In this document: positions 1,458 through 13,453 of the stretch, in pieces | How the letters are laid out: each line of letters begins with the position of its first letter | Numbering within the stretch: the first letter of the stretch is position 1 | Origin: an uncultured Eubacteriales bacterium | GTDB taxonomy: Bacteria > Bacillota > Clostridia > Lachnospirales > Lachnospiraceae | Assembly: GCA_900315305.1 (NCBI GenBank) | Contig: OMYS01000022.1 | Span: 1-64,000, forward strand | Reading direction: 5' to 3' | DNA length: 64,000 nt | Position numbers and translations under genes: made by a program | Notes under the pieces: generated by a model | The model's database searches: none | Seen by the model: only the letters and a program-made list of their open reading frames with translations | Told to the model about the DNA's origin: nothing

Positions 1458-1512
1458 TATAATAAAAAGATGCCGGAGTCAAAGCAAAGTGCCTGCATTG
1501 TCGCTTTGGCTC
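1458..1512 (+). promoter_or_regulatory. Candidate promoter -10 and 5' UTR hairpin of the lipoprotein gene
   Basis: TATAAT lies at 1458-1463. I see no good -35 at 16-18 bp spacing. Downstream, gagtcaaagc (1476-1485) pairs with gctttggctc (1503-1512), with one mismatch, in the presumed leader. Function is inferred only. Confidence 0.4.
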
Positions 1513-9976: not shown

Positions 9977-12697
9977 TTATTCGCCTTGGTCGGCGTCGGC
10001 ATGCTCTCCGTCGTGTTCTCCGTCGTCATCGTTCTCATTGCCGGCAGCTTCATCACCGCCGGTCTCATCGCCGCCGGTATTTCCGGCAGCCGCATCGTCC
10101 TGCGTTCCGGCGAGCGCAGTGTTGTCTGCGCCGCCATTATCAGTGCCGTCTGCGGTATTGCCATTACCGGTGTCATCGCCGGCGGTGAAATCTGTATTTC
10201 CACCGGCAGTGTTTCCGCCGTTGTCCGTATCGTCGTTCTGATAGGCGGCCTTTGCCTGCGCTGCGGTCTGCTGATCCTCATCGGCAATGCTTTCATCAGA
10301 TGAATTGTTTCCCGCGGAAGGTACATAGAGCTCAATCGGGCTCGCGTCGAAATCCGTGTATTTGCAGACATTGCACTTCTTTGTCGGGATCTTGTCCCCG
10401 GCGACATAATCCTCCGAATCAAACGGGCAGGAGGATGAGGGGAGCATGCCCGAGTAGCCGCAGACGGTCATTTTCTTGATGTCATCCGGCTTGACGAAGT
10501 TCTTGATCTCTTCATTTTCGGTGATGCGGGACATGATCTTCTGCCAGATCAGCTTGTGATAGGTCCGGTAGATTCCCGAATCAGGGAGAGTTGAGTTGTC
10601 ATCATAGCCGGCCCAGACGCCCATCGTATAGTACGGCGTATAGCCGACGAACCAGACATTGCGGTAGTCGTTGGTTGTACCGGTCTTGCCGGCGACCGGC
10701 ATGTTGGTATCGAGCTGACATTCCGTTGCGGTTCCGGACTTTACGACGTCCTGCATCGCGCTCGTCAGGAGCCATGCTGTATCCTCACTGACTGCGCGGC
10801 TTGTTTCCGCTGTGTTGTCGATGACGGTATTTCCGTCCTGATCGAGGATCTTCGTATAGAAGATCGGCTTCGTGTAGGTACCGCCGTTTGCGATTGCCGC
10901 GTATGCGGCTGTCAGCTCCAGGTTCGTGACACCGTTTGTGATACCGCCGAGGGCGAGCGGCTGTACGACGTCCTTTGCGGGATCGAGTGTCGTGAAGCCG
11001 AACTTGAGCAGCTGGTTGTATGCCGCCTGCGGCGTGAGGGCCGTGATGGTCTTGACCGCGGCGACGTTGATGGAATTCGTGATCGCCTGGCGGACTGTGA
11101 TCCACCCGCGGTACTGTCCGTCAGAGTTGTGGACCGGCGTTCCGTTGCTGTAGGAATATTCCTCGTCCTTGATGTAGGTCCCGAGGTTCACGAGACCGCT
11201 CTCAAGAGCGGGCGCGTAGGTCGAGACGATCTTGAAGGTCGAGCCCGGCTGCCGTGTGACATTGGTCGCGCGGTTCAGCGTGAGCGACGCCGTCTTCTCG
11301 CCGCGGCCACCCTCGATGGCCTTGACATAGCCGGTCGTCTGGTCCATGAGGACGAGAGAAATCTGCGGCTCCGGCGTCCAGTTCGTTCTCTCTGCGACGA
11401 CCGTGTCACCTGCACCGACAATGTCCGCTTTGTACTCGTCGATGTAGGCCTGGCCCTCCTCTTCGGAGGAGAACAGGTCGCTGAACGAAGAGTCACTCAT
11501 TTTCTGCTGGAAATACGTGACAAGCGTCTCATCGCTGAAATTTTCGGTCGTGCCGTCGGAATGGCGGACAGTCAGCGCCCACTCGAGCGAGTACTGTGTG
11601 CCGTCCGGGTAGTTCGACTCATCGGAGACCTCCTCGTCACAGATCGCCTGGAGATCAGGGTCCTGCGTCGTGTAAATACGGAGTCCGCCGGAGTAGAGGA
11701 GCTGGTACGCCTGGTTCTCCGTGTATCCCTTCTGCGACTCGAGATCGCTGATGACCTGCTCAGTCAGCTCGTCGATGAAGTAGCTGTACACGGTGTTCTG
11801 CGTCGCCTCGACGTCCTGCGCCTGCTGAATCCGCGTGTACACGTCGTCGGCGAGCGCCTCGTTCATCTGGTCCTCTGTGATGTAGCCGAGCTCGAGCATT
11901 TTGTTCAGAACGCGCTTGCGCCGCTCCGCATTCTGCTCGGGGTGCGTGATCGGATTGTACTTCGCCGGGTTCTGTGTGATGCCGGCGAGGACCGCCGACT
12001 CGGACAGCGTCAGGTCCTTGACGTCCTTGTTGAAGTACTTTTTCGATGCGGCCTGCACGCCGTAGGTTCCGGCGCCGAGATTGATCGTGTTCAGGTAGTT
12101 TTCCAGAATCAGGTCCTTATTTTTAAGCTTCTCCTCGAGCTTCACCGCGAGATACTGCTCCTGGAACTTGCGCTTGATCCGGTCGATCAGCGTCTTCTCC
12201 TTGGTCCATGTCGTGAATACGTTGTTCTTGAGGAGCTGCTGCGTAATCGTCGAAGCGCCCTCCGTGAACCGGCCTCCGTTCTTGATGCCGGTGATGACCG
12301 CGCGGAGAATGCCCTTCGGGTCGACGCCGCTGTGCTGGTAGAAGCGCTCATCCTCGATTGCGACGACTGCATGCTGCAGGGACACCGGGACATCGTCGAG
12401 CGATACGGCGGTCCGGTTCGAGTCCGAGGACGTGAGCTTCTGGAGCTGGTTGCCTTCCGCGTCATAAATGAACGTCGCGTATCCGCTTGGCGCGATGTTG
12501 ATGCTGTCGACATCGGGCGCGTTGGCGATGATTCCGCGGACCATTCCGACCGTTCCGCATACGAGAACGACGACCAGGCAGATCAGAGCGGCGAACAGCA
12601 CGCGGAGGGTGACGGCCCCCACGCGCCTCTCAATCGACGGCTGGGTCGATGAGAGCTGTTCCTCTTTTTTTTCGATACCTAACTGTGTGTAATCCAT
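9977..12697 (-). CDS. Class A penicillin-binding protein (bifunctional peptidoglycan synthase)
   Basis: Polymerises and crosslinks peptidoglycan outside the membrane. It has a cytoplasmic tail, one membrane segment (about residues 28-52) and a glycosyltransferase domain with EDERFYQHSGVDPKG near residues 115-128. The transpeptidase has PGSTFKI (serine near 485), SNG-type residues and KTGTTNDYRN near 670. The last 110 or so residues are a Gly/Asn/Asp/Thr-rich acidic tail ending GEHADADQGE, likely disordered and wall-exposed. Total 906 residues. The ATG has almost no leader: the -10 lies six bases upstream (see promoter entry). ponA/mrcA-type; the exact paralogue is not assignable. Confidence 0.93.
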   Translation of the reverse strand: MDYTQLGIEKKEEQLSSTQPSIERRVGAVTLRVLFAALICLVVVLVCGTVGMVRGIIANAPDVDSINIAPSGYATFIYDAEGNQLQKLTSSDSNRTAVSLDDVPVSLQHAVVAIEDERFYQHSGVDPKGILRAVITGIKNGGRFTEGASTITQQLLKNNVFTTWTKEKTLIDRIKRKFQEQYLAVKLEEKLKNKDLILENYLNTINLGAGTYGVQAASKKYFNKDVKDLTLSESAVLAGITQNPAKYNPITHPEQNAERRKRVLNKMLELGYITEDQMNEALADDVYTRIQQAQDVEATQNTVYSYFIDELTEQVISDLESQKGYTENQAYQLLYSGGLRIYTTQDPDLQAICDEEVSDESNYPDGTQYSLEWALTVRHSDGTTENFSDETLVTYFQQKMSDSSFSDLFSSEEEGQAYIDEYKADIVGAGDTVVAERTNWTPEPQISLVLMDQTTGYVKAIEGGRGEKTASLTLNRATNVTRQPGSTFKIVSTYAPALESGLVNLGTYIKDEEYSYSNGTPVHNSDGQYRGWITVRQAITNSINVAAVKTITALTPQAAYNQLLKFGFTTLDPAKDVVQPLALGGITNGVTNLELTAAYAAIANGGTYTKPIFYTKILDQDGNTVIDNTAETSRAVSEDTAWLLTSAMQDVVKSGTATECQLDTNMPVAGKTGTTNDYRNVWFVGYTPYYTMGVWAGYDDNSTLPDSGIYRTYHKLIWQKIMSRITENEEIKNFVKPDDIKKMTVCGYSGMLPSSSCPFDSEDYVAGDKIPTKKCNVCKYTDFDASPIELYVPSAGNNSSDESIADEDQQTAAQAKAAYQNDDTDNGGNTAGGNTDFTAGDDTGNGNTADGTDNGGADNTALAGTQDDAAAGNTGGDETGGDEAAGNENDDDGEHDGEHADADQGE

Positions 12698-12703
12698 GGC
12701 CTT

Positions 12704-12732
12704 ATTATATCAAAAAGGAAATATGAATCCAA
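12704..12732 (-). promoter_or_regulatory. PBP promoter placed for leaderless initiation
   Basis: On the minus strand, TTGGAT, a 17-base spacer and TATAAT end at 12704, and the ATG begins at 12697. A normal +1 would fall on or next to the start codon. The only purine-rich sequence between them is AAGG, two bases from the ATG. Confidence 0.55.
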
Positions 12733-12762
12733 GATTCCAGTGGTGGTTTGAGGGAAGGGATA

Positions 12763-12771
12763 TGGTATACT
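12763..12771 (+). promoter_or_regulatory. Extended -10 promoter of yigZ
   Basis: TGG followed by TATACT forms an extended -10, 35 bp upstream of the yigZ ATG. No convincing -35 is present. It diverges from the PBP promoter within a 108-bp intergenic region. Confidence 0.5.
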
Positions 12772-12805
12772 GAAAAAAGATTACAGCGCGCAGGGAGAGA
12801 AGGCT

Positions 12806-13453
12806 ATGGCAATCGATTACAGAACGTTTATGCACGAGGGGCTCTCGGAGTACACGGACCGCAAGTCGCGGTTTCTCGGAGAGGCTGTCAGGGCCGCGAC
12901 GCAGGAGGAGGCCGAGGCGTATATTGCCTCTGTGCGAAAGCGGTACTATGACGCGAGGCACCACTGCTTTGCCTATATTGTCGGTGAGCCGGGAACGCCG
13001 GATGAGGTGACCCGCGCCGGTGATGACGGGGAGCCGTCCGGTACGGCCGGGCGGCCGATTCTCGAAATTCTGACCGGCCGTGAGCTTCATCATGTCCTAA
13101 TCGTCGTCACGCGCTACTTCGGGGGCACGCTCCTTGGCACGGGCGGGCTCGTTCGCGCCTATTCGTCCGCGGCGAAGGCAGCGGCCGAAAATGCCGGCCT
13201 GGTCACGGTGCGTGCGGGTCTTCGCATGAAGGTGACGGCCGGCTATGATCTGATCGGAAAAATGCAGTACCTCTTTGAGAAGAACGGCATAACGGTTGCG
13301 GGAACGGAATACACGGACAAGGTCGTCTTCCGAATCGTGATTCCGGCCGGAAATGAAGAGCGGACTCGGAAGCTGATCCGTGAGGCGACGAATGCGGCGG
13401 CCGTCTGCGAGGCAGACGGCGCGGAAATGTACGAGGAGCCTGTGAGAGAGTAA
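12806..13453 (+). CDS. yigZ: YigZ/IMPACT family protein
   Basis: 215 residues matching the YigZ/UPF0029 (Impact) family. The N-terminal domain holds DARHHCFAYIVG, the DDGEPSGTAGRPILE block and TRYFGGTLLGTGGLVRAYS, all diagnostic. The C-terminal ferredoxin-like domain follows. The family is widespread; bacterial members have no firm biochemical role, though relatives act on translation control. The ribosome site GGAGAGAAGG supports the start. It converges with ppiB, leaving four bases between stops. Confidence 0.93.
   Translation: MAIDYRTFMHEGLSEYTDRKSRFLGEAVRAATQEEAEAYIASVRKRYYDARHHCFAYIVGEPGTPDEVTRAGDDGEPSGTAGRPILEILTGRELHHVLIVVTRYFGGTLLGTGGLVRAYSSAAKAAAENAGLVTVRAGLRMKVTAGYDLIGKMQYLFEKNGITVAGTEYTDKVVFRIVIPAGNEERTRKLIREATNAAAVCEADGAEMYEEPVRE

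Follow-up and report, generated by a model that had tools for sequence, protein, structure and literature searches.

Does the mRNA of a class A penicillin-binding protein (PBP) begin at the start codon of its own gene? The question is raised by a locus in the window (the whole 64,000-nucleotide stretch of DNA analysed here) at which a promoter stands directly before the ATG. Comparison with orthologous genes leads us to a probability of about 90% that this mRNA is leaderless and starts at the ATG.

Promoter and start codon of the PBP gene

The gene occupies positions 9977–12697 on the minus strand and encodes 906 amino acids. Pfam finds Transgly (PF00912; E = 4.2e-62) and Transpeptidase (PF00905; E = 3e-38) domains in one chain, both over the curated cut-offs, which makes the product a class A PBP, as an earlier sequence-only reading had named it. 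On the minus strand the upstream DNA reads TTGGAT-17-TATAAT-AAGGCC-ATG, exactly the layout described in that reading, with the promoter ending six bases before the ATG. It comprises a weak -35 element (TTGGAT, 12727–12732; many members of the genus share its TTG), a 17-nt spacer ending in TGA (12726–12710), an extended -10 element (TGA-TATAAT, 12704–12712, with TATAAT at 12709–12704), a 6-nt discriminator between the -10 element and the start codon, conserved in length and not in sequence (AAGGCC, 12698–12703), and the ATG (12695–12697), whose A is the predicted +1 of transcription. For this ATG the Shine–Dalgarno (SD) pairing energy amounts to only -1.9 kcal/mol, compared with -9.3 or stronger in 28 of 29 relatives from the family, in agreement with the earlier claim that no usable SD precedes it (energies were calculated against the canonical anti-SD tail, the 3′ end of the host genome's own 16S rRNA having escaped a pattern search). 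The gene shows two features of leaderless mRNAs, the absence of an SD upstream of the start codon, judged by pairing energy, and an AUG start codon. An ATG also opens the 22 leaderless orthologues described below, partly by construction, given that the main placement of starts considered ATG codons only and preferred the expected N-terminal motif.

The PBP gene shares a 108-bp intergenic region with a divergent yigZ/UPF0029 gene (12806–13453, plus strand; PF01205, E = 3e-37), the start of which has an SD of its own (-8.1). By eye, an extended -10-like sequence, TGGTATACT, lies before yigZ at 12763–12771 on the plus strand, facing away from the PBP promoter. An Rfam search of positions 12500–13000 for an RNA element gave no match at E ≤ 1.

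Orthologues within and beyond the genus

Orthologues were sought in 61 genomes, 37 from the genus of the window (its own genome included) and 24 from the order. Starts could be placed in 34 of the 37 genus genomes, the other three (G002, G006 and G012) giving weaker matches only. We counted an orthologue as leaderless when a -10 element matching at least five of six consensus positions stood 6–8 nt from the ATG and the SD energy was weaker than -6. By this definition the arrangement is present in 22 of the 34, with gaps of 6 nt in 18, 7 nt in three and 8 nt in one; the -10 element of the 18 is an exact TATAAT in 17 and TAGAAT in one. Two of the 22 have moderate SD energies (L010, -4.1; L029, -5.3) relative to the cut-off of -6. 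The remaining 12 genus orthologues have an SD (six) or, by the thresholds used, neither signal (six). Among the leaderless orthologues, a TTG at a 16–18-nt spacer is found in 17 of 22 and TGn before the -10 element in 14 of 22, and the bases between the -10 element and the ATG vary. A pyrimidine (C or T) occupies position -1 in 21 of 22, which is weak evidence by itself because 22 of the 29 SD-led family orthologues also have C or T at this position. The nearest relative (92% identity) shares the -35 element, -10 element and ATG of the window locus but differs in spacer and discriminator, and inspection by eye shows the promoter next to the PBP gene even where the upstream neighbour is a different one, as in L012. 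The leaderless reading is supported because the spacing between the -10 element and the ATG has been kept while the discriminator and the upstream DNA diverged. The orthologues share descent, so that the 22 do not amount to 22 independent events. Separately, three genus members in a clade that lacks the leaderless arrangement (L016, L017 and L018) have an odd leader, with AAGGAGG about 38 nt before the PBP ATG and a possible hairpin between, and a scan of named genomes returned two loci, L031 (record RUG611) and L032, the latter a distant one from Bacilli.

The 5′ ends of the leaderless orthologues also fold weakly: their first 40 nt have a mean fold energy of -0.88, compared with -3.98 in the other genus orthologues (n = 12; Mann–Whitney p = 4e-4) and -3.58 in the family orthologues (p = 2e-5), the sequences compared being related by descent. 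This may partly reflect AT-rich first codons, as the G+C fraction is 0.32 in the leaderless orthologues versus 0.41 in the other genus orthologues and 0.37 in the family.

Beyond the genus the picture is different. A search of 299 genomes from the family, which has at least 298 genera, gave matches at E ≤ 1e-150 in 277, and starts were read in the best-scoring 29 of these, all from other genera. All 29 are SD-led, with energies from -6.8 to -14.4, and 17 of the 29 carry an exact TATAAT 23–27 nt before the ATG. The relatives from the order are likewise SD-led in 19 of 20 cases (20 orthologues from the 24 genomes), the choice of start being doubtful in the other. With the -10 element and its spacing retained in 22 of 34 genus orthologues and an SD in the 29 from other genera, the proposal that transcription starts at or beside the PBP start codon is strongly supported.

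In a tree of 63 sequences built by a quick method, the 30 long genus sequences form one clade (SH-aLRT 99) adjoining SD-led genera. Because the other genera are SD-led, many of them with a TATAAT further upstream, and the genus clade lies among them, a leader segment of about 18 nt, lying between a TATAAT promoter already in place and the ATG, seems to have disappeared near the base of the genus; the SD would have gone with this leader, and the distance from -10 element to ATG would have shrunk from about 24 to 6 nt. Most of the genus would then have retained the leaderless arrangement, and some members would have lost it later. Parsimony needs at least five changes between the leaderless and the other state (at equal costs, one gain over 27 sequences, a single-sequence gain and three losses); the simplest account is loss of the leader, followed in places by loss of the arrangement itself. 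Three members at the poorly placed base of the genus (L024, L028 and L030) may never have had it. Both the direction of this switch and the way in which it came about are inferred from these comparisons.

Other readings of the locus

A transcript that begins elsewhere would change the meaning of this arrangement. The main PBP transcript could come from further upstream, as a yigZ antisense RNA or from a cryptic promoter, and reach the ATG without an SD, leaving the TATAAT a secondary role. Two genus orthologues (L009 and L011) fit such a reading, in that the roughly 50 nt nearest the ATG hold no -10 element with at least five of six matches and the PBP gene, judged by eye, closely follows another. 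At the window locus, a first consensus scan misses the PBP promoter, since TTGGAT agrees with TTGACA at three of six positions and the scan needs four; however, when the 756 nt upstream were scanned on this strand with relaxed criteria, the PBP promoter scored 11 (two points coming from the TGn) and the runner-up 6. The stretch through yigZ, in which the sequence-only reading had suggested looking for a further promoter, thus holds none comparable. A longer transcript would also find no ribosome-binding site (RBS) at the PBP ATG, and would leave the conserved spacing between -10 element and ATG unexplained, and we regard an upstream start as very unlikely. That the TATAAT is merely a functionless hexamer which happens to resemble a -10 element near an ATG has the least to recommend it. 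TATAAT-N6-ATG alone occurs three times in the window (0.12 expected), and the two further sites do not look leaderless, as chance occurrence would allow. The longer TTG-N20-TATAAT-N6-ATG is found twice in the window, where 100 shuffles average 0.00; the second (24094–24057) looks by eye like an ordinary promoter, with AAGGAG and an ATG about 70 nt downstream. Chance is opposed by the full pattern occurring in none of the 100 shuffles and by the PBP site itself, which the genus has retained with constant spacing although its flanks change.

Translation might, on the other hand, start downstream, at a GTG at codon 26 that follows GAGAGG, the apparent codons 1–25 then being a leader. This was the only alternative start tested. 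In the host genome it has SD-like pairing of -7.4, and a GTG stands at this codon in 10 of the 34 genus orthologues, but only in those; L002, at 92% identity, has GTA at this codon, and the others have GTA, GCA, GTC, ATC, AGC or further codons. The PBP orthologues align from the same Met as the window ATG, and so do the SD-led family relatives, whose 29 starts, picked by alignment without any motif, all fall at that Met (M[NDHK][FYL]); this separate reading, in which the N-terminal motif was not used, returned the same family starts. The order orthologues, of which 14 of 20 begin M[NDS][YF], are softer evidence, their starts having been chosen from ATG codons with preference for the motif. Over 11 pairs, codons 2–25 show 51 synonymous codon changes and 54 nonsynonymous ones (summed by hand), the nonsynonymous being more numerous in 5 of the 11. 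About one change in four is expected to be synonymous without constraint, and the observed excess is modest evidence that these codons are translated. Family alignment and the non-conserved alternative therefore support the ATG at 12697–12695 as the real translation start; a start at codon 26 is highly improbable, and we retain the leaderless reading of the PBP mRNA.

Frequency, mechanism and known systems

How exceptional this arrangement is in the host was judged from a sample of 724 kb (29% of the 2.50-Mb genome), in which a simple caller gave 527 genes. By a lenient measure, taking the best of several starts, 504 of the 527 calls have an SD energy of -5 or stronger, in line with the remark that neighbouring genes mostly have strong SDs. 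The PBP gene is the only one of the 527 calls whose first start lacks an SD and has an exact TATAAT at N6, and only two leaderless candidates with an exact TATAAT were found in the sample. The second is hisH (L119:2235-2897 = G000:C31:62235-62897), a likely candidate with TGCTATAAT-N8-ATG and an SD energy of -2.4. By eye, about 8 of 25 hisH orthologues in the genus (L222–L246) look leaderless, the others having an SD or being ambiguous; of five in the order, two (L247 and L249) gave no start. A leaderless habit of PBP genes in general was considered and rejected, as a paralogue on C32 has an SD (-13.4); another, on C65, has weak SDs at its candidate starts. Elsewhere in the window, TATAATAAAAAGATG at 1458–1472 (plus strand) precedes a frame of 93 aa, and the latter overlaps another, lipoprotein-like frame.

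Across genomes, TGNTATAATN6ATG and an N11 control number 137:112 in 37 genus genomes, 363:404 in 59 family genomes from other genera and 145:229 in 24 order genomes. The genus-wide excess over the family has a Fisher p of 0.04, but 0.16 without the 12 PBP sites, and is therefore not significant beyond the PBP gene. G026 has 13 such sites, and of its 12 others nine were inspected, six lying by eye at the starts of long open reading frames (ORFs). In G018 all seven others were inspected, three being at long-ORF starts and one cut by a contig end, and none of four TATAATN6ATG sites inspected in G000 was convincing. The long ORFs (L202, L203, L204, L206, L209 and L210 in G026; L213, L215 and L216 in G018) presumably include hydE-, ybaK- and truA-like genes among others. 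These sites suggest that some members of the genus have more leaderless genes.

The promoter, its spacing, the lack of an SD and the SD-led state elsewhere can be read directly from the DNA; the exact 5′ end of the PBP transcript is predicted from the conserved distance between -10 element and ATG. In the proposed mechanism, the housekeeping (sigma-A type) RNA polymerase would initiate at the A of the PBP ATG, giving an mRNA without leader or SD. Ribosomes would then use the 5′-terminal AUG as they do on leaderless mRNAs of other bacteria, where, according to the part of a review used here, initiation is mostly by 70S ribosomes that bind the 5′ AUG (PMC9031893); by analogy, the PBP mRNA may follow a 70S-binding route dependent on IF2/IF3. 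The loss of the leader lends itself to experiment by leader swapping, because other genera keep a TATAAT and an SD leader before the same start. We take pneumococcal pbp2a to be a class A PBP gene as well. It is doubtful that selection brought about leaderless class A PBP genes on two independent occasions, here and in pneumococcus (pbp2a). If it did, an AUG at the 5′ end would tie PBP output to promoter firing and free 70S ribosomes rather than to competition for SD-dependent initiation, and wall synthesis would continue, or be tuned, when canonical initiation is limiting. The link between cell-wall synthesis and special translation conditions, already raised by the sequence-only reading, is speculation.

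Leaderless mRNAs are a known kind, to which the PBP gene adds a case with a clear SD-to-leaderless switch, traceable phylogenetically in one conserved gene. In the portions of the literature drawn on here, 0.4% of transcription start sites (TSS) are leaderless in Escherichia coli (PMC4782308), 15 genes are potentially leaderless in Clostridioides difficile (PMC7438776), and in Streptococcus pyogenes 8.6% of mRNAs are leaderless, 81% of these in common with Streptococcus agalactiae (PMC6431027). Clostridium phytofermentans belongs to the Lachnospiraceae, probably (judging by family size) the family of the window, and 4% of its 'InterS' TSS look leaderless (PMC5171806). As far as the consulted parts of that study go, its potentially leaderless genes have generally retained an RBS as well as a further TSS upstream, whereas the window PBP gene lacks an RBS and the upstream scan gave no alternative promoter; the switch sits in a group in which leaderless genes appeared rare and generally had an RBS (PMC5171806). 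The view that leaderless initiation is uncommon in this group holds for C. phytofermentans (PMC5171806) and C. difficile (PMC7438776), but does not extend to all Firmicutes, streptococci being at about 9% (PMC6431027). The 'TA-led' genes of Zheng et al. 2011 (PMC3160421) resemble the present one in lacking an SD and carrying a Pribnow-like box some 10 nt upstream of the start codon, and in turnover between SD-led and TA-led states among orthologues, although the Firmicutes cases in the sections consulted are mainly Lactobacillales and Mycoplasma, unlike the window host. The closest parallel is pbp2a of Streptococcus pneumoniae D39, a PBP gene like that of the window, and described as leaderless (PMC6212727). 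In the parts of that study used here, leaderless operons make up 9% of the total, versus the two exact-TATAAT candidates among 527 sampled host genes, and a pbp2a reporter (promoter and first codons) was translated efficiently without a leader, an added RBS giving no rise (PMC6212727). The two genes belong to different Firmicutes orders, and the leaderless state predicted for the window PBP parallels one that has been studied experimentally in pneumococcus (PMC6212727).
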